From: Plantactinospora alkalitolerans
Lineage (GTDB): Bacteria > Actinomycetota > Actinomycetes > Mycobacteriales > Micromonosporaceae
DNA: 42,339 nt
Direction: 5' to 3'
Assembly: GCF_015690345.1 (NCBI RefSeq)
Contig: NZ_JADPUN010000285.1
Location: 1-42,339 of the forward strand
Shown: piece after piece, positions 11,249 through 42,339 of the stretch
How the letters are laid out: each line of letters begins with the position of its first letter
Position numbering within the stretch: position 1 is the first letter of the stretch
Translations under genes and position numbers: made by a program
The notes under the pieces: generated by a model
Told to the model about the DNA's origin: nothing
The model's input: only the letters and a program-made list of their open reading frames with translations
The model's database searches: none

Positions 11249-12298
11249 TCAGGCGAGGTCGAGGGCGCGGGCGGCGGTGGGCACGTCGTTCTGGATGGTG
11301 ATCGGCGAGGGCGCGGTCGAGATGGCCCACTCCGGGTCCTTGAGGCCGTGCCCCGTCACCGTGCAGACCACGGTCGATCCGCTGGGCACCATGCCGGCTG
11401 CGGCCTGCTGCAACAGGCCGGCGACACTGGCCGCGCTGGCCAGCTCGACGAAGACGCCCACCTCGCGGGCGAGCAGCCGGTACGCGGACAGGATCTCCCG
11501 GTCGGTCACCGCCTCGATCAGTCCGCCGGAGGAGTCCCGGGCATCCAGCGCCTGCGTCCAACTTGCCGGGTTCCCGATCCGGATCGCGGTGGCGATGGTC
11601 GACGGTTCGCGGACCGCCGTACCGGTGACGATGGGCGCGGCGCCGGAGGCCTGGAAGCCGTACATCTTCGGGCGGCGGGTGGCGTTGCCCTCGTCGGTCT
11701 CCTCCTGGTAGCCCATCCAGTACGCGGTGATGTTGCCGGCGTTGCCGACCGGCAGGCAGTGGATGTCGGGGGCGTCGCCGAGCGCCGCGACGATCTCGAA
11801 CGCCGCCGTCTTCTGGCCGTGCAGCCGGTTGATGTTGACCGAGTTGACAAGCGTCACCGGATAGTCCTGGGCCAGCTTGGCGGCGAGTGCCAGGCAGTCG
11901 TCGAAGTTGCCGTTGATCTGCAGCAGTCGGGCGCCGTGGACCAGCGCCTGGGCCATCTTGCCCAGTGCGATCTTGCCCTGCGGAACGAGTACGGCGCAGG
12001 TGAGTCCGGCCCGGGCCGCGTACGCCGCCGCCGAGGCGCTGGTGTTGCCGGTGGACGCACAGATGATCGCCTTGTTGCCGGCCTCGACCGCCTTGGAGAC
12101 CGCCAGCGTCATGCCCCGGTCCTTGAACGAGCCGGTGGGGTTGGCGCCCTCCACCTTGAGATAGACGTCACAACCGAGTCGCGCGGAGAGCACCGGGGCC
12201 GGCAGCAGCGGAGTGTTCCCCTCGTTGAGGGTGATCACCGGCGTGGCCTCGCTGACCGGCAGCCGGTTCCGGTACGCCTCGATCAAGCCCCGCCACAT
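11249..12298 (-). CDS. thrC: Threonine synthase
   Basis: PLP-dependent conversion of O-phosphohomoserine to L-threonine. The 349-aa product has the fold-type II PLP signature [13 protein letters not shown] with the Schiff-base Lys59, the phosphate-binding [29 protein letters not shown] and the C-terminal [13 protein letters not shown]. Start ATG 12298 follows AGGAG; an upstream extension of the frame has no family similarity. thrC is 167 bp after hom. That gap shows no clear terminator, and I see no leader peptide or attenuator in it. Read-through from argS-lysA-hom is plausible. Confidence 0.96.
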
Positions 12299-12465
12299 AT
12301 CTCTCTCCTCGCACCTGCGGTGCCCGCCCGGTCTGGTCGGCAGCGGCGGGTCAGCTCCACGGTGCCCCAGGGTCGCCGATCGACCGCACCCGCACCACCC
12401 GCTAACCACCTATCGGGACGACCGGCCCACCAGGTGATCAGCGGCGGACCGGCACCGGGCGGCCG

Positions 12466-13827
12466 CTAGCGGCTGCCGCCCTCGACGCGGAGCACGCTGG
12501 CGATCGAGCGGACGATCTCCAGCCTGCGCAGTTCCTCGACCGTCGCGGCGAGCGCGGCGTCCGGTGCGGCATGCGTCACGATCACCAGGATCGCGTCGCC
12601 ACCCCGGCCCACCGGACCGGAACCATCGGCCGGACCGGACGGCGCGGACGCCTGCCGTACGGTCGCGATCGACACGTCGTGCCGGGCGAACACCCCGGCG
12701 ACCGCCGCCAGTACGCCCGGTCGGTCGGCAACGTCGAGGCTGATGTGGTAGCGGGTGACCGCCTCCCCCATCGGCCGGATCGGCAACGCCGCGTACGACG
12801 ACTCGCTCGGGGTACGGACCCCCGCCAGATGGTTGCGGGCCGCCGCGACCACGTCGCCGAGCACCGCGCTCGCGGTCGGCGCACCGCCGGCACCCCGACC
12901 GTAGAACATGAGCTGACCTGCGGCAGCGGCCTCGACGAAGACCGCGTTGAAGGCGTCGCCGACGCTGGCCAGCGGATGGCTGACCGGGATCATCGCCGGA
13001 TGCACCCGGACGCTGACCGACTCCGTTCCGGTGGAGTCCGGGCCCCGGGACGCGATGCAGAGCAGCTTGATGGTGCAGCCCATCGCCTTGGCGCTGGCCA
13101 TGTCGGCCGCGGTGACCTCGGTGATGCCCTCCCGGTGGACGTCGGCGGCGGTCACCCGGGTGTGGAAGGCGAGCGAGGCCAGGATCGCGGCCTTGGCGGC
13201 GGCGTCGAAGCCCTCGACGTCGGCGGTCGGATCCGCTTCCGCGTAACCCAGCTCGGTCGCCTCGTCCAGCGCCTCCGTGAAGCCGGCGCCGGTGGCGTCC
13301 ATCGCGGAGAGGATGAAGTTCGTGGTGCCGTTGACGATGCCGGTGACCCGGCTGATCGTGTCGCCGTGCAGGGACTCGCGCAGCGAGCGGAGCAGCGGGA
13401 TCGCCCCGGCCACCGCCGCCTCGTAGTAGAGGTTGGCACCGCCTTCGGCGGCGGCGTCGTGCAGCGTGCCGCCGTCCTCGGCCAGCAGGGCCTTGTTGGC
13501 GGTCACCACGCCCTTGCCGGCCCGCATCGCCTCGACCAGCCAGGTCCGGGCCGGTTCGATCCCGCCGACCACCTCGATCACCAGGTCGACGTCGTCCCGC
13601 TTGACCAGGCCGAGCGCGTCGGTGGTGAACAGCGACGGGTCGGCGGGCAGCGGTCCCCGCTCGCGGGCGAGCCGGCGTACGGCGATGCCGGCCAGTTCCA
13701 GCGGTGCACCGACCCGGGCGGTCAGGTCGGCGGCCTGCTCGTGCAACAGCCGTACCACCTCGGTGCCGACGGTGCCACAGCCCAGCAGGGCCAGTCGGAC
13801 CGGCCGGATCACCCGCGCACTACTCAT
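12466..13827 (-). CDS. hom: Homoserine dehydrogenase
   Basis: NAD(P)H-dependent reduction of aspartate semialdehyde to homoserine, the branch point to threonine and methionine. The 453-aa product has an N-terminal Rossmann fold (LALLGCGTVGTEVV, Gly16/18/21), VTANKALLAEDG, the catalytic-domain segment GIVNGTTNFILSAM and a C-terminal ACT domain (about 365-450, YHISLDVADRPGVLAAVAGV) for threonine feedback. A Gly/Ser/Pro-rich insert interrupts the ACT region. ATG 13827 overlaps the lysA stop by 4 bp (ATGA), so the two are translationally coupled. Confidence 0.97.
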   Translation of the reverse strand: MSSARVIRPVRLALLGCGTVGTEVVRLLHEQAADLTARVGAPLELAGIAVRRLARERGPLPADPSLFTTDALGLVKRDDVDLVIEVVGGIEPARTWLVEAMRAGKGVVTANKALLAEDGGTLHDAAAEGGANLYYEAAVAGAIPLLRSLRESLHGDTISRVTGIVNGTTNFILSAMDATGAGFTEALDEATELGYAEADPTADVEGFDAAAKAAILASLAFHTRVTAADVHREGITEVTAADMASAKAMGCTIKLLCIASRGPDSTGTESVSVRVHPAMIPVSHPLASVGDAFNAVFVEAAAAGQLMFYGRGAGGAPTASAVLGDVVAAARNHLAGVRTPSESSYAALPIRPMGEAVTRYHISLDVADRPGVLAAVAGVFARHDVSIATVRQASAPSGPADGSGPVGRGGDAILVIVTHAAPDAALAATVEELRRLEIVRSIASVLRVEGGSR

Positions 13828-36449: not shown

Positions 36450-37535
36450 CTACGGCGCCGGGGTGACGATGCGCCGGACGAGGTCCACCGCCGAGACGCC
36501 GTACACCGCCTCGACCGCGTTGGCCAGCAGGTGCCCGGCCCGGAACCGCTCGATCGGCACCAGCCCGAGCCGGGTCAGGTGCAGGTAGGTGTAGTTCAGC
36601 GCCACCCGGTAGTGCAGGAACTCGGGCCGGGAGAAGACCCGTTCCCGGTACGACTCGTTGCCGAGCATGAGTTGGTGCAGTTCACTGTGCGCGACGCCGG
36701 GCGAACTGCGGGGCGGCGGCGGTGGACCCACCAGCCCGTCATCCGAGATCAACGACGTGAAACGCGGAGCGTACCGGTCCAGCAGCGCGGCCCACTCCCG
36801 GACGAACGGCACCGACGGGGCGTCCGGATCGTCCAGTGCCCGGACCACCGCGCTGACCCGGTCGGCCAGTTCGCCCGCCCGGCTGCGGTACGCCGCGTCG
36901 AAGGCGGGACGGACGTGTGCGGCCCCGGTGTGCGCGCAGACCCCGAGGAAGCCCTCGGCGTGTGCGCGGAACGCGACGAACCCACTGGTCAACGGGCCGG
37001 GCGCGGTGTGCGCCGCGACCAGCATGAGGTGCATCGCCACGCCGTCGCGCCGGTCCCGGCCGGCTCGCACGTGCCCGAGCATGTCGAACAGTGCCCCGGT
37101 GGCGTCCCGGTAGAAGTCGGTCAGCAGTTCGACCGCCTCGTCACTGCCCAGCACGTGCCGGCGCGAGTCGAATTCCTCGGCCACGATGGAGTTGTTCGGA
37201 TACCAGGGGGTGAGTGGGCCGCGTTCGTGCTCCTGGAGGGCGAGCACCCGGTGCCGCTCCAGCGCCGCATCCTGGTCCAGCACGGTGCGGGACGGATGCG
37301 ACCGCAGGTAGGCGCCGACCGTGGTCTCGATTGCGGGCCACACCCGCGACCGCCAGGTCTCCTCGTCGGTACGGACGTTGAGCCGCAGATGCGGGCCGCG
37401 CCGCCAGTGCCGGACGACGTACGACTCGGCGGCGTCGGCACCCAACCCGGCCAGCACCGGCCGGACGGCGTCGAGCAGCAGCCCGTCCTTGTCGGCATCG
37501 TGGTAGGCGATGTGGACCGTGTGCCACCGACGCAT
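36450..37535 (-). CDS. Thiopeptide pyridine synthase (TbtD/TclM-like)
   Basis: 361-aa SpaB_C-type (lantibiotic dehydratase C-terminal-like) protein. In thiopeptide pathways this enzyme carries out the formal [4+2] cycloaddition of two dehydroalanines and ejects the leader. N-terminal RRWHTVHIAYHDADKDGLLL, then RHWRRGPHLRLNVRT, the segment PLTPWYPNNSIVAEEFDSRR and C-terminal LHYRVALNYTYLHLTRLGLV. No ATPase, LanC or other fused domain is present. ATG 37535 is 1 nt after the stop of the preceding gene. It is the last gene of the cluster as seen here. Confidence 0.8.
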   Translation of the reverse strand: MRRWHTVHIAYHDADKDGLLLDAVRPVLAGLGADAAESYVVRHWRRGPHLRLNVRTDEETWRSRVWPAIETTVGAYLRSHPSRTVLDQDAALERHRVLALQEHERGPLTPWYPNNSIVAEEFDSRRHVLGSDEAVELLTDFYRDATGALFDMLGHVRAGRDRRDGVAMHLMLVAAHTAPGPLTSGFVAFRAHAEGFLGVCAHTGAAHVRPAFDAAYRSRAGELADRVSAVVRALDDPDAPSVPFVREWAALLDRYAPRFTSLISDDGLVGPPPPPRSSPGVAHSELHQLMLGNESYRERVFSRPEFLHYRVALNYTYLHLTRLGLVPIERFRAGHLLANAVEAVYGVSAVDLVRRIVTPAP

Positions 37536-37536
37536 C

Positions 37537-38559
37537 TCAACGCTCCGTTTCGGACAGCGAGGCCAGGGTACGCGCGACGATCAGACCGACCTGGGCCTCG
37601 GTCTCCAGTCCCAGTCCCAGTCGGTTGTTCAGCAGATGGGCGCAGCGCAGCAGGATCAGGGCCAGGGTGCGCCGCTCGGAGCGGGCCACGGCGGCCAGCG
37701 GTCCCATCGGGGAACCCGGGTCGGGCGGGGCGTGCCGACCCGACGCCCACAACGTGGTCAGGCTGTCGTGCAGGGTCCGGATGGAACGGTTCCAGGTCGC
37801 CAGCGCCCCCCGGGTGGCCGCCGTACCACGGGTGGCCGGCGGGGCCTCCGTCGCCGCCTCGGCCCAGCAGCTCCGGGCCTGGCGTCGCAGCCCGGCCCGG
37901 TCCCGGACGAAGGCCGCCTGACTGGCCGCCCAGAGCGGCCCGGTGCCCGCCGGCTCCCGATGCAGGGTCTCCGCGACCCGGGCCGCCGCCCCGGGCAGGT
38001 CCGGTTCGCAGACCGCCAGTGTCGACATGGTGGCGGCGAGCGCGACGGCTGCCCGGCGGTCCGCCGGTACGCCCGCCGCCAGCACCCGCAGCGCGAGGTC
38101 GCTGGACTCGGTGAAGTGCCGCTCCACCGCCGTCATCGCCTCGTCGTCGCCGTAGGCGTGGTGCTCCGGCCGGTACGCGACGAACTGCACCGAGTCGTTG
38201 GGGCGCAGCTCCGACTCGTACCGGTCCAGCCGCTCCCCCCGGGCGAGCCCCGCGGCGAACTCCCGGTACGCCTCCGCGCTGATCCTGGGAGTGGAGGGGT
38301 GGCGCCGGAGGTGTTCGCCGGCACGCTCGCGGATCCGTTCCCGCAGCGGCTCGGCGTACTCCGGTCGGGCCGGTCGGAGGCGGAACCGGATGTGCAGCCC
38401 GCCCTCCCAGTAGCGTAGGAAGAAGTGGCCGGTGGTCAGTCCGGCATCCGTCGCCTCGGCGACCACCGGCGCGACGGCGCCCGTGACAAGGGCGTCGAGA
38501 TCGCCCTGGTGGAACAGATGGGCACTCACCCACCCCCGGTCAGCGGGCGTCGACACCAT
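37537..38559 (-). CDS. Thiopeptide dehydratase, elimination domain (TbtC-like SpaB_C)
   Basis: 340-aa SpaB_C-type protein expected to remove glutamate from glutamylated Ser/Thr to form Dha/Dhb. Start region WVSAHLFHQGDLDALVTGAV and the family hallmark FFLRYWEGGLHIRFRLRP. It is the split-off C-terminal half of a LanB dehydratase; its N-terminal half is the next gene upstream, with a 20-bp overlap (38540-38559). An alternative start would be GTG 38529 (VSAHLF), which removes the overlap. Confidence 0.8.
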   Translation of the reverse strand: MVSTPADRGWVSAHLFHQGDLDALVTGAVAPVVAEATDAGLTTGHFFLRYWEGGLHIRFRLRPARPEYAEPLRERIRERAGEHLRRHPSTPRISAEAYREFAAGLARGERLDRYESELRPNDSVQFVAYRPEHHAYGDDEAMTAVERHFTESSDLALRVLAAGVPADRRAAVALAATMSTLAVCEPDLPGAAARVAETLHREPAGTGPLWAASQAAFVRDRAGLRRQARSCWAEAATEAPPATRGTAATRGALATWNRSIRTLHDSLTTLWASGRHAPPDPGSPMGPLAAVARSERRTLALILLRCAHLLNNRLGLGLETEAQVGLIVARTLASLSETER

Positions 38560-41206
38560 CGCCCCCGCCCGTACCGCCGTCTCTGGCCGTCGCCGAGACC
38601 TGCACGACGTACTCGGTGACCCGTACGCCGTGCCGGCCGTACGTCGGTGCGTCCGCCGGGTCGGGCAGCACCTCCTCCAGCACCATCAGCGCGTCCGGGT
38701 CGGTGGCGATCGTCCTGGTGAACCCGGTCAGCAGGAAGGCGTTCGTGACGTCCACGTAGAACGGCTTCCGGGCCTTGCCGAGCAGGCCGTCGACCAACGG
38801 CTCCCGCTGCGGGTTGACCACCCGGGCGAAGAACCTGCGCGGAATTCCGTGCCCGGCGAGCCAGTCGGCCAGCCGGGGCAGATAGGCCGGGTCGCTCTCG
38901 CCCTTCGCGGGGATCGGGAACTCACCGGACCGCAGTCGCCAGCAGGCGCGGGCGAGGGTGACCCGGCCGATGTCCATCCGGGGATGGGATTCCACGGCCG
39001 GCGGCACCCGGCTGCCCCGGAACACCCAGCCCGGCGCCATCGCGGTGCCCGGCTCACCGAAGACCCGGACCAGGAACCGCAGTGCCGACGGCAGGTAGTA
39101 CTCGGCGAGCAACCCGAGATGCACCGGCAGTACCGCCCGACTGTCCGGCCCGGTCAGGACCAGCCGGTCCCGCTCGTGGTCGTACCGGACCCGCAGGTCC
39201 GTCAGCGGCAGCGCGGGCAGTTCGCCGCCGCCGGTGGCGTACGGGTACTCCAGTTCCACGTCGCCGGTTGCCGGACGCAGGTTCACGCTGCTGTGCAGCG
39301 CCGCCCGGCATTCCGCCAGCACCTGGTCGCCGGCCGGCGCGCGAAGGTCGGCGACGGGCGGCACCTCGGCGCCGACGAGGTCCATCAGCCGCCAGAGCCG
39401 GGTCAGGCCGCGCCCGTACCCCGCGGTGGCGGTGTTGATCACCACGCCGAGGCCGTCCGGGGTGTCCGTGGGTTGCAGATAGACGCAGACCGAGCCGGGG
39501 GCGACGACGGACCGGGGCCAGGTGTCGATCAACTTCGCCACCAGCTCCGGGTCGGCCCGGCTGACCCCGCCCGGCCCGTCCGGTGGGCCGGTGATCGCCT
39601 CCCACGCCTGGGCCCGGTGCGCCGCGAGTTCGCGCAGCCGGCTCAGCGGACTGCGGCGCAGCGTGCCGAGATGCGGCGCCAGCCGGTCACGCAGCAGGGT
39701 GAGCAGTACGTCCCGCTCGTCGCCGGCCACCCCGTCGGTGTGTACCTGCCGGTAGAACTCCAGCACCGGCACCGCCGCCTCCGCGCCGTAGCGGGACAGG
39801 AAGTACGTGGTAGCGGCGAGCTTGACCGGCAGGTCCAGGTCGAAGATGGCGAGGAACCGCCGGACCAGGTCCAGGTCGTCGAGGGCCGGCCGCCACTGCC
39901 CGGCTCCGGCCTGTACCGGGGGGTGGGTCAGCAGTGCGCTGTCGAGACAGAGGTTCAGGTCGGGCAGCCTCGGATCGACGCCGTCGAGGGCGAGGAAGGT
40001 GTCGGTGACGTTCCGCCGGATCTCGGCGAGCCGGGTTCCGTGATCGTCGGCGCCGAGGACGCCCCGGTCGGGCCGGACCACGGCACGCAGCCCGCGTACC
40101 GCGGCGACGACACTTCCCGCGACCGGCCCGGCGTCGCCGGTGCCGTCGTCGCCGGTGCCGTCGTCGCCCGGCCGGGCCAGCCAGTCCGCCAGGTCGCCGA
40201 GCGGGTCGGTGGACTGGTCGGCGAAGGGCGCCGGCAGCTCCAGCAGGCCCGCCCGGACCAGCGCCTCGACCGCACCGCCCTGCCCGGACGGCAGCCGGGC
40301 GAGCAGGGTTCCCATGGTCAGCTCGGGCTCGGCCCGGACCGCCGCCAGCAGCCGGCGCAGCGAATCGGTGGCGGCCAGGTTGGCGAGCGGCTCGTCCAGG
40401 CCGGCGCCGCAGAACCAGATCCGGCTGCCGTCGTCGGTCGCGCTCGGATTCACCCGTACGGCGGCCCGGCCGCGTACGTCGGGCCGGCGGGACAGCACCG
40501 TCCAGAGGTACTCGATGACGCGCCGGTCCAGCTCGATCAGCACCTGGAAGTCGAGCCGCTCCGAGGGCACCACCGCCGGCCCGGACTCCGTCCACCGGCC
40601 GAATCCACTGTGGGCGAACGTGGCGTACGGGCTGGGTTTGACGGCGGCACGGGCCAGGTACTTCGCCAGCCGGAGCAGTACCTGGCGGGGCGGGGCGGCG
40701 ACCTCGGCGGCGGCCAGCCACACCTCCAACTGGGTGGAGAGCACCCGGCTGCCCTGCGCCAGGCCCCTGCGGAACACCTCGGCGCGTACCGCCGTCCGCA
40801 GCGCCGTCACCCGCTGCGCCGTCTCGGCGGCGAGGACCCGGGACAGCTCGGCCCGCATCGCGGCCACGTCGTCCAGCCGCAGTTGCCAGTCGGTGACCCG
40901 TCCGGCCAGGTCACCGGGGAGCGCCGCCAGCACCTCGGCGGAGCCGGCCCGCGCCCCGGGCCGCCGGCCGGTGAAGAGCGCCCGACGCAACGCCACCAGC
41001 AGCGGTTTGTGTTCCGGGGTGGCGCCGGTGCCGATCACCTCGTACATCCGGTCGGCCAGTTGGGCGCCCTCCTCCGACAGCCAACGTGTCACCGTACCGA
41101 TCCGGTCGACGAGTTCCCAGGTGGCGGTGAAGCGCAGGTCGTCCAGGACCGTGGCCGGCAGGCCGGTCACCCGGACTCCGAAGCTCGGGGAGATGCGGTA
41201 CGACAT
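38540..41206 (-). CDS. Thiopeptide dehydratase, glutamylation domain (TbtB-like LanB)
   Basis: 888-aa LanB N-terminal-type protein that uses glutamyl-tRNA to glutamylate Ser/Thr of the precursor. Visible features are an N-terminal VRVTGLPATVLDDLRF, LAKYLARAAVKPSPYATFAH (the LanB R-x-TPFG-F-type segment), long helical/beta stretches and a C-terminal VTNAFLLTGFTRTIATDPDA. No SpaB_C domain is fused, so it is the 'split' LanB of thiopeptides. ATG 41206 follows AAGGAGCG. It lies downstream of the precursor gene, behind a strong hairpin. A Gly/Asp-rich GDDGTGDDGTGDAG repeat sits near the middle. Confidence 0.85.
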   Translation of the reverse strand: MSYRISPSFGVRVTGLPATVLDDLRFTATWELVDRIGTVTRWLSEEGAQLADRMYEVIGTGATPEHKPLLVALRRALFTGRRPGARAGSAEVLAALPGDLAGRVTDWQLRLDDVAAMRAELSRVLAAETAQRVTALRTAVRAEVFRRGLAQGSRVLSTQLEVWLAAAEVAAPPRQVLLRLAKYLARAAVKPSPYATFAHSGFGRWTESGPAVVPSERLDFQVLIELDRRVIEYLWTVLSRRPDVRGRAAVRVNPSATDDGSRIWFCGAGLDEPLANLAATDSLRRLLAAVRAEPELTMGTLLARLPSGQGGAVEALVRAGLLELPAPFADQSTDPLGDLADWLARPGDDGTGDDGTGDAGPVAGSVVAAVRGLRAVVRPDRGVLGADDHGTRLAEIRRNVTDTFLALDGVDPRLPDLNLCLDSALLTHPPVQAGAGQWRPALDDLDLVRRFLAIFDLDLPVKLAATTYFLSRYGAEAAVPVLEFYRQVHTDGVAGDERDVLLTLLRDRLAPHLGTLRRSPLSRLRELAAHRAQAWEAITGPPDGPGGVSRADPELVAKLIDTWPRSVVAPGSVCVYLQPTDTPDGLGVVINTATAGYGRGLTRLWRLMDLVGAEVPPVADLRAPAGDQVLAECRAALHSSVNLRPATGDVELEYPYATGGGELPALPLTDLRVRYDHERDRLVLTGPDSRAVLPVHLGLLAEYYLPSALRFLVRVFGEPGTAMAPGWVFRGSRVPPAVESHPRMDIGRVTLARACWRLRSGEFPIPAKGESDPAYLPRLADWLAGHGIPRRFFARVVNPQREPLVDGLLGKARKPFYVDVTNAFLLTGFTRTIATDPDALMVLEEVLPDPADAPTYGRHGVRVTEYVVQVSATARDGGTGGGDGVDAR

Positions 41207-41274
41207 GTCGCTACGCTCCTTGCGGGCCGTCGGGGGCGGGGCCGGGACGGTGTCCGCCCTGCGGCCCAAGGTGG

Positions 41275-41306
41275 CCGGGGCGTCCGGGTGTTCCCGGACG
41301 CCCCGG
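41275..41306 (-). terminator. Strong hairpin between the precursor and LanB genes
   Basis: Perfect 14-bp stem (41275-41288 with 41293-41306) and a TGTT loop, 15 nt after the precursor stop codon and 68 nt before the next start. Best read as a partial terminator or 3' stabiliser that gives more precursor than enzyme mRNA. Confidence 0.8.
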
Positions 41307-41321
41307 GTCAAACGGTTGTCG

Positions 41322-41546
41322 CTACGCGACGCCCCGCGCGTCCTCGTCCCCGGGGGACTCGGGCGCGAAGCAGCTGGTGCCGGTGGTGTAGCAGGAGCAG
41401 TAGGCACAACTGGTGCACGAGGTGGCGCAGGAGGCACCGGTTTCCACGGTGCCGTGGCCCTCGGCCATCAGGGAGTCGGCGGACAGGATGCTGATGGTGT
41501 CGACCTCGAGGCCATCGAGGTCGAGGTCGAGCTCTGGACGAGACAT
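41322..41546 (-). CDS. Thiopeptide precursor peptide
   Basis: 74-aa peptide. The leader (1-38) is acidic and ends LMAEGHGTVETGA, very like the AGHGMTEVGA leader end of thiomuracin-type precursors. The core starts at Ser39: SCATSCTSCAYCSC, then YTTGTSC. The tail FAPESPGDEDARGVA follows. The core has 7 Cys among many Ser/Thr, as expected for thiazoles and dehydroamino acids. ATG 41546 is preferred over GTG 41555 because AAAGGTGA is properly spaced from it. The GTG overlaps the upstream dehydrogenase stop. Confidence 0.88.
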   Translation of the reverse strand: MSRPELDLDLDGLEVDTISILSADSLMAEGHGTVETGASCATSCTSCAYCSCYTTGTSCFAPESPGDEDARGVA

Positions 41547-41551
41547 CTGGG

Positions 41552-42339
41552 TCACCTTTCGAATCGGGACGGTTGGTCGTGTGCCGTCGGGGACGGCGCG
41601 GCGGTCAGGGCGACATGGCCACCTCCTTGCGGTTGTTCGAGGGCCGGAAGGTCGGGAACCCGCCGCGTGAGCTTCCGGGCGCGGGCGCCCACAGCCAGGA
41701 AGCCCAGGCTCTGCCGACGCGTCGGGTCGAGTCCCAGGGCGGCGTCGGTGCCGCCGTTGGTTCCTTCCGAATGGATCCGGGAGGCCAGCCCCAGTACCGC
41801 CGCGGCCAGGGTGGCGCGGTGGACGACGAGGCCGACCTCGGCCTGTTGGAGGCGGTACCAGTCGGCTCCGTACCGCCGCACCGGGGACAGCGGATCGCCG
41901 ACCGGGATCAGGACGGCCGCCGCCCCGCGCAACGCGAGGCGGGTGTTGGGCAGCAGGGGGCCGCCGACGATCGCCGCCACCGTCGGCTCACCGCCGAGCG
42001 GGACCAGCCGGTGCCGGTGCCGGTCGTACCGGTAGCCGCCCCGGGACAGGCCGTCGACCCGCAACACCACCGCGCAGAGCTCGACCGTCGCCGGCCCGGC
42101 GTCGGCACCGGGCAGGTCGCCCGGGTACCCGTCAGAAGCGGCGGCGAGGATCGCCGCGAGCTGCCCGGTGGTGATCGCCACCGGCGGGTAGCCGGCGAAC
42201 GGCGAGGCGCGGTGCGGTACGCCGTCGGCCAGTCGCACCGGCGGAACGACGGGCAACGGAAACGCCCCGGCACGCGACACCGGCGGACGCGGCCCGGCAG
42301 GCGACACCGGCGGACGCGGCTCGGCGGTTTCCGGGGCGG
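41552..42339 (-). CDS. SagB-type azoline dehydrogenase, C-terminal part (runs off right edge)
   Basis: FMN-dependent nitroreductase-fold enzyme that oxidises thiazolines to thiazoles in thiopeptide and linear azol(in)e pathways (TbtE-like). About 262 residues are in the window; the reading frame is still open at the right edge, so the N-terminal half is missing. Pattern: YPPVAITTGQLAAILAAASD, then VVLRVDGLSRGGYRYDRHRH, then GADWYRLQQAEVGLVVHRAT and LASRIHSEG. A 27-bp tandem repeat at 42274-42327 encodes PRPPVSxAG and looks like a linker between domains. GTG 42307 could start a shorter protein. The gene ends 5 bp before the precursor ATG. Confidence 0.75.
   Translation of the reverse strand, partial: APETAEPRPPVSPAGPRPPVSRAGAFPLPVVPPVRLADGVPHRASPFAGYPPVAITTGQLAAILAAASDGYPGDLPGADAGPATVELCAVVLRVDGLSRGGYRYDRHRHRLVPLGGEPTVAAIVGGPLLPNTRLALRGAAAVLIPVGDPLSPVRRYGADWYRLQQAEVGLVVHRATLAAAVLGLASRIHSEGTNGGTDAALGLDPTRRQSLGFLAVGARARKLTRRVPDLPALEQPQGGGHVALTAAPSPTAHDQPSRFER
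42274..42327 (-). repeat. 27-bp tandem repeat in the dehydrogenase gene
   Basis: Two adjacent 27-bp units (42274-42300 and 42301-42327) differ at two positions and encode a Pro-Arg-rich nonapeptide twice (PRPPVSRAG and PRPPVSPAG). Confidence 0.85.

Follow-up and report, generated by a model that had tools for sequence, protein, structure and literature searches.

A probable seven-gene thiopeptide cassette split over two contigs of Plantactinospora alkalitolerans, with a predicted 56-membered ring

The right end of contig G000:C385 of Plantactinospora alkalitolerans carries part of what looks like a thiopeptide biosynthetic cluster, and this raises two questions: where the rest of the cluster is, and which serine of its long core peptide joins Ser1 when the ring is closed. 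The contig, 42,339 bases long, is analysed here in its entirety and is referred to below as the window. Five open frames on its minus strand (36450-42339) read E-A-B-C-D, where E is a SagB-type dehydrogenase, A the precursor peptide, B a glutamylating LanB-type protein, C a separate elimination protein and D a pyridine synthase; F and G denote an Ocin-ThiF-like protein and a YcaO protein. We consider it likely that these genes belong to a complete minimal cassette, F-G-E-A-B-C-D, which is split over two contigs inside E, and that the second dehydroalanine (Dha) of the pyridine derives from Ser20 of the core.

D scores 464 bits against the TbtD/PbtD equivalog (cut-off 325) and has PbtD as its nearest solved structure (2.9e-61). 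C belongs to a thiopeptide-type family (84.8 bits, cut-off 48), while B contains a Lant_dehydr_N match (1.3e-23) and finds its nearest solved structure in 6ec7 ('Lantibiotic dehydratase domain protein', 3e-103), which we take to be TbtB, with the goadsporin protein far behind at 9e-12. The window holds a [4+2] pyridine synthase gene, a split LanB composed of distinct glutamylation and elimination proteins, and a precursor rich in Cys, Ser and Thr whose core opens with Ser and contains a second Ser. The best start of A is the ATG at 41546, with GAAAGG upstream; its leader ends in ...EGHGTVETGA, and its score against the thiomuracin/GE37468 precursor model NF033399 (28.7 bits) is 0.3 below the cut-off of 29. 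The part of E present here (open frame 41552-42337) is also under its SagB cut-off (41.9 bits, TIGR03605, cut-off 78.4). An earlier sequence-only reading of this DNA had proposed a thiopeptide cluster with these five genes at these places, which the frames and family matches bear out; it had also named grouping with lanthipeptide enzymes as a test. By family and by structure, thiopeptide enzymes are the best match of B, C and D. A genome scan with B as the sole query gave no relatives, nor did a viral scan with D.

Because the window spans a whole contig, its right edge is an assembly break. The YcaO gene and its partner had been expected just beyond this edge, and a search of the genome with PF02624 returned two YcaO genes, on contigs C160 and C249. 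The gene near the end of C160 (G) is of the SagD type (TIGR03604, 317 bits, cut-off 219) and has its own leader-binding domain (TIGR03882, 115 bits, above cut-off). It is preceded by the Ocin-ThiF-like gene F (TIGR03693, 85.5 bits, under the cut-off of 562 and matching at the N-terminus only). Behind it lies the N-terminal half of a SagB gene, above cut-off, which runs off the contig end. TIGR03605 matches twice in the genome, once at each of the two contig ends. In five of the six sister frames compared (L158, L159, L162, L163 and L166) the two halves tile a single frame, on L158 at residues 64-342 and 339-578 of 583; for the sixth, L157, the wrong frame was picked. Since the two pieces tile one sister frame, the break would fall inside the linker of one tandem dehydrogenase, and we infer that C160 and C385 adjoin, giving the order F-G-E-A-B-C-D. 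A YcaO protein, a leader-binding partner and an azoline dehydrogenase are present on C160 and, if the contigs join in this way, complete the window cluster as anticipated.

A point against the join is that the C160 and C385 ends share no exact overlap in the end sequences compared, as would be expected if the contigs were not neighbours, the window being a second, partnerless cluster and C160 coming from elsewhere. We regard this as highly improbable in view of the single SagB match at each contig end, the tiling of the two E pieces on one sister gene, and the unbroken F-G-E-A-B-C-D order in 15 of 19 sister loci (L164 and L169 begin at a contig end). The sole other YcaO found, on C249 (G000:C249:39207-40235; L008 11108-12433), was rejected as a partner, being nearer the thioamidation type: its best NCBIfam match is to McrA-type thioamidation proteins (263 bits, cut-off 365), and it scores 138.5 bits on the SagD-type model (cut-off 219). 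Its scanned neighbours include a methyltransferase and transporter parts. On C160, a gene for an MmyB-like helix-turn-helix regulator (L007 6706-7536) lies ~0.4 kb upstream of F on the same strand; it had no match in the sister flanks compared.

The window cluster is kin to about nineteen similar actinobacterial gene sets. In a tree of 92 D rows (L191-L201 are absent from it, some of them duplicating loci already there), window D groups with 19 sister rows (99/87), namely a Catenulispora metagenome-assembled genome and 18 loci of family f31, and together they lie in a 30-row clade (100/99); the intermediate 23-row fork is weak (84/37). B has matches in 27 of 201 genomes, its own included, at a threshold of 1e-10, with the best other match at 39%. 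A first alignment of D gave 77 loci in named genomes, some of them weak. A second found D in 9 of 394 genomes of the class at 1e-50 and 2 of 397 genomes of the order at 1e-100 (own genome counted in both), in 26 of 341 genomes of family f31 and in 11 of 390 genomes of family f15, the last two at 1e-110.

Gene order was tallied, leaving A out, over 97 loci (77 plus 28, less seven duplicates and L115, which has no D match). F-G-E-B-C-D and B-C-D-E-F-G each occur in 21 of them, a further E or E-G stands behind F-G-E-B-C-D in 12, and the remainder have other orders or are incomplete. Two of the 21 F-G-E-B-C-D loci, L043 and L063, have the precursor before F and not between E and B, and no precursor was found in a third, L090. 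The window arrangement had earlier been described as unlike that of thiomuracin. The contrast with GE2270 and thiomuracin holds, locus L084 of Planobispora rosea, with the core SCNCVCGFCCSCSPSA, reading A-B-C-D-E-F-G, but the window order is not new, and the idea that it is unique to the window cluster was rejected, as 21 of the 97 loci share it.

Some loci carry only part of the set. In L172 and L173 (genomes G620 and G619) only C-D was detected, while their close relatives L171 and L174 are whole, which looks like loss of the cluster by deletion. Only D or C-D was detected in L196, L199 and L200 of family f15, and the precursor-like frames near L196 and L199 are without Ser1, that of L200 without the second Ser (GGC for GSC), as if these serines go when other cluster genes go. 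Elsewhere, five consecutive precursor-like frames lie upstream of F in L031 (3366-4410, G079:C78) and in L032 (15499-16657, G047:C18), with very Cys-rich cores such as SCGPCSCSCCVVCCCCCCS.

Sister precursors were recovered by their leader ending, in 17 of the 19 sister rows. Their cores share the pattern SSx3YCSSYx4SCWxPE (SCWATE in one), in which Y-C-S-S-Y has its Ser at position 8 and S-C-W-x-[PT]-E at position 15, as in SSYTGYCSSYLSATSCWAPEA, for which a 41-membered ring is predicted. Adding the window brings the set to 18 precursors with 12 distinct cores; each contains Y-C-S-[SC]-Y and S-C-[WF]-x-[PT]-E at a spacing of seven residues. The window core aligns as SCATSCTSCA-YCSCY-TTGT-SCFAPE plus an acidic tail of 11 residues and is five residues longer ahead of YCS, so that the two sites become Ser13 and Ser20. 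By its core motif, by the hairpin between A and B described below and, via the inferred join, by its gene order, the window fits this SCWAPE family, a kinship that, like the predicted ring size, the earlier reading had not noted. That 17 sister precursors share a YCSSY...SCW core suggests an uncharacterised product under selection. We did not find a description of it: no title or abstract start in the literature listings names this core family, the string SCWAPE is absent from the literature text searched, and YCSSY gave only seemingly unrelated occurrences. This silence is weak evidence of novelty, because most subscription papers and the supplements fell outside the coverage and published mining tables may list such precursors.

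For a second Ser at position n the ring size is taken as 3n-4; applied to pyritides with Ser6 and Ser7, this yields 14 and 17 (PMC9247985). Seven more distant relatives are informative, having up to their S-C site only Ser1 and one other Ser: L194 and L195 (n=10, 26-membered, the spacing counted by eye), L041, L042 and L192 (n=12, 32-membered), L040 (n=14, 38-membered) and L193 (n=17, 47-membered). In this small sample the second Ser begins S-C-x-A in six of the seven, L192 having S-C-D-C. Serines occupy positions 1, 5, 8, 13, 20 and 26 of the window core, and the first five of these are S-C sites. Ser20 is preferred as the second Ser because it alone continues as S-C-x-A, as in six of the seven two-Ser relatives, and the predicted product is a 56-membered Ser1-Ser20 thiopeptide.

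The main rival is the same cassette with the pyridine formed from Ser1 and Ser13 (C12-S13-C14); the ring would then be 35-membered, as large as that of berninamycin, and the tail long and partly modified or trimmed. Several observations weigh against the choice of Ser20. The Cys-Ser-Cys around Ser13 resembles the classical GE2270 site, which we take to be where the pyridine forms in such cores and which recurs in the core of L084; Y-C-S-[SC]-Y is conserved in all 18 cores compared, and among the sisters Y-C-S and S-C-W are equally conserved. S-C-x-A occurs in 6 of the 11 cores outside the sister group that have an S-C site after Ser1 (L040, L041, L042, L193, L194 and L195), and cores with more than two serines lack it in L191 (S-C-D-C, n=14), L197 (S-C-H-V, n=13) and L043 (S-C-I-K-A, n=8, and S-C-L-K-A, n=9). 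The core of L176, SNCFCGTCATCNSAPSFIEDEVL, which belongs to the 30-row clade, has no S-C site at all. Finally, 35 is already a known natural ring size (PMC7210931). Nevertheless we find closure at Ser13 rather unlikely: the equivalent site in the 17 sisters would yield a 20-membered ring and is followed by Ser, not Cys; where relatives have just two candidate serines, the S-C site closer to the C-terminus supplies the second; and in the window S-C-x-A sits at Ser20. Apart from this argument, L175, L176 and L177 are three pyridine-synthase paralogues in the single genome G708.

Closure at Ser20 suggests the following pathway. F and G would cyclise core cysteines, and perhaps some Ser and Thr, and the tandem E protein would oxidise the rings to azoles. 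B would glutamylate selected Ser and Thr residues, from which C would eliminate glutamate to leave Dha or dehydrobutyrine, and D would join Dha1 and the second Dha into a pyridine with expulsion of the leader. The second Dha, from Ser20, would be marked by the S-C-F-A-P-E tail, leaving a ring of 20 residues and 56 atoms with a thiazole-Phe-Ala-Pro-Glu... tail. The leader and the S-C-x-A-P-E tail may act as two recognition sites between which ring length is free to vary, by analogy with pyritide enzymes: MroB and MroD bind the leader together with a C-terminal tripeptide that steers the choice of the second Ser, and ring size is variable (PMC9247985).

The pyritide (mro) system has the same B/C/D enzyme set, but its cluster is without azole genes and its precursors without Cys, whereas the window cluster has F, G, E and a Cys-rich core. 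GE2270 and thiomuracin (pbt and tbt) are made by the same kinds of enzymes and precursor; window D falls in their equivalog and the window leader end, GHG..E.GA-S, is that of L084. Their ring is 29-membered and formed from Ser1 and Ser11, which fits the L084 core; the 36-residue window core has no Ser at 11, its candidates being Ser20 or Ser13, and the gene order differs as described above. The lactazole (laz) gene set is similarly compact, and the LazA core has S-C followed by a polar tail as in the window core, although LazF fuses the elimination domain to the dehydrogenase, unlike the stand-alone C of 340 amino acids (aa) and the separate tandem E of the window. The laz enzymes tolerate large rings in vitro (PMC7210931). 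As in goadsporin biosynthesis, LanB-type dehydration occurs together with azoles, but window B matches the goadsporin protein only distantly.

Goadsporin is linear and its pathway is not known to include a pyridine synthase, and a linear azole- and Dha-containing peptide of this kind would also result here if D were inactive or altered. Window D has a long end branch (0.56) and departs from 2 of 29 columns of 95% conservation: position 188 is Ser in 87 of 92 rows and Thr in three but Ala in window D (S188A), and position 334 is Cys in 89 of 92 rows but Gly in window D (C334G). These points count against the proposed product and, because of Ala188 and Gly334, the activity of window D is not to be taken for granted. 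A linear product still seems very unlikely to us, as D keeps the other 27 conserved columns together with its high equivalog score and there is no sign of decay in B, C or G. Among 27 chosen rows, window included, near-invariant columns are departed from at 2 of 103 in B, none of 54 in C and 2 of 148 in G.

The gap between A and B contains a long hairpin (z = -4.39 against dinucleotide shuffles), whose stem was matched by none of 299 random windows of the same length. RNAfold gave a long hairpin in the A-B gap of all 18 loci folded (z from -1.3 to -4.7 against simple shuffles), and a perfect stem of at least 11 is present in 15 of the 18, those of L039, L168 and L169 being interrupted (perfect stems of 6, 5 and 3). 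In comparisons with ~295 random windows the observed stem was reached by 2 for L160, 9 for L166, 1 for L167 and 3 for L170. Stem-loops of this kind also follow precursor genes in other known operons for ribosomally synthesised and post-translationally modified peptides, and the hairpin here probably raises the level of precursor over enzyme messenger. Outside the cassette, no window flank frame of at least 120 aa matched the flanks of 14 sister loci at 1e-15 (up to 6 kb behind D, a shorter stretch before F), and the most widely matched sister flank frame was found in two other loci. No tailoring, transport or resistance gene shared by the flanks emerged from this comparison. Features are listed in Table 1.

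Table 1. Features of the cassette in the window and, for the N-terminal domain of E, at the end of contig C160.
Feature	Position	Strand	Basis
E, N-terminal domain	L007 (G000:C160) 11958-12905		SagB, 99.8 bits
E, C-terminal SagB-type domain of tandem flavin azoline dehydrogenase (gene cut by contig end)	41552..42339	-	TIGR03605
A, precursor peptide, 74 aa	41322..41546	-	NF033399; aligns with 17 sister precursors
Core peptide SCATSCTSCAYCSCYTTGTSCFAPESPGDEDARGVA, 36 residues	41325..41432	-	Sequence; homologous to SSx3YCSSYx4SCWxPE in sister clusters
Ser20 codon, predicted second pyridine-forming Ser (S-C-F-A-P-E)	41373..41375	-	Homologous to Ser15 of 17 sister cores
Perfect 14-bp hairpin, 4-nt loop, A-B gap	41275..41306	-	Fold z-score, random-window comparison
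B, TbtB-like Glu-tRNA-dependent Ser/Thr glutamylating LanB N-terminal protein, 888 aa	38540..41206	-	PF04738; 6ec7 match
C, separate glutamate-elimination protein (SpaB_C fold), 340 aa	37537..38559	-	PF14028, 9.7e-36; TIGR03891
D, TbtD/PbtD-type pyridine synthase, 361 aa	36450..37535	-	NF045556; PbtD

On balance we lean towards a view of the clade in which ring size is not fixed: the leader and an S-C tail, often S-C-x-A-P, would mark two serines, and the stretch between them would be free. Natural rings would then span ~20 to 56 atoms, the SCWAPE family making 41-membered rings, two of the two-Ser relatives rings of 38 and 47, and the window cluster the largest. Judged by its precursor, the window product would have an unusually large ring for a thiopeptide, and L193, with Ser1 and Ser17 only, would likewise exceed 35 if its prediction is true. 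Known natural thiopeptide rings were put at 26- to 35-membered in 2020 (PMC7210931), compared with the 14-62 atoms reached in vitro by lactazole enzymes (PMC7210931) and 14-68 by pyritide enzymes (PMC9247985), the upper sizes with engineered substrates. If this clade does make natural 38-, 41-, 47- and 56-membered rings, the flexibility seen in vitro is used by evolution, and its compact cassettes would be a ready chassis for large pyridine macrocycles.

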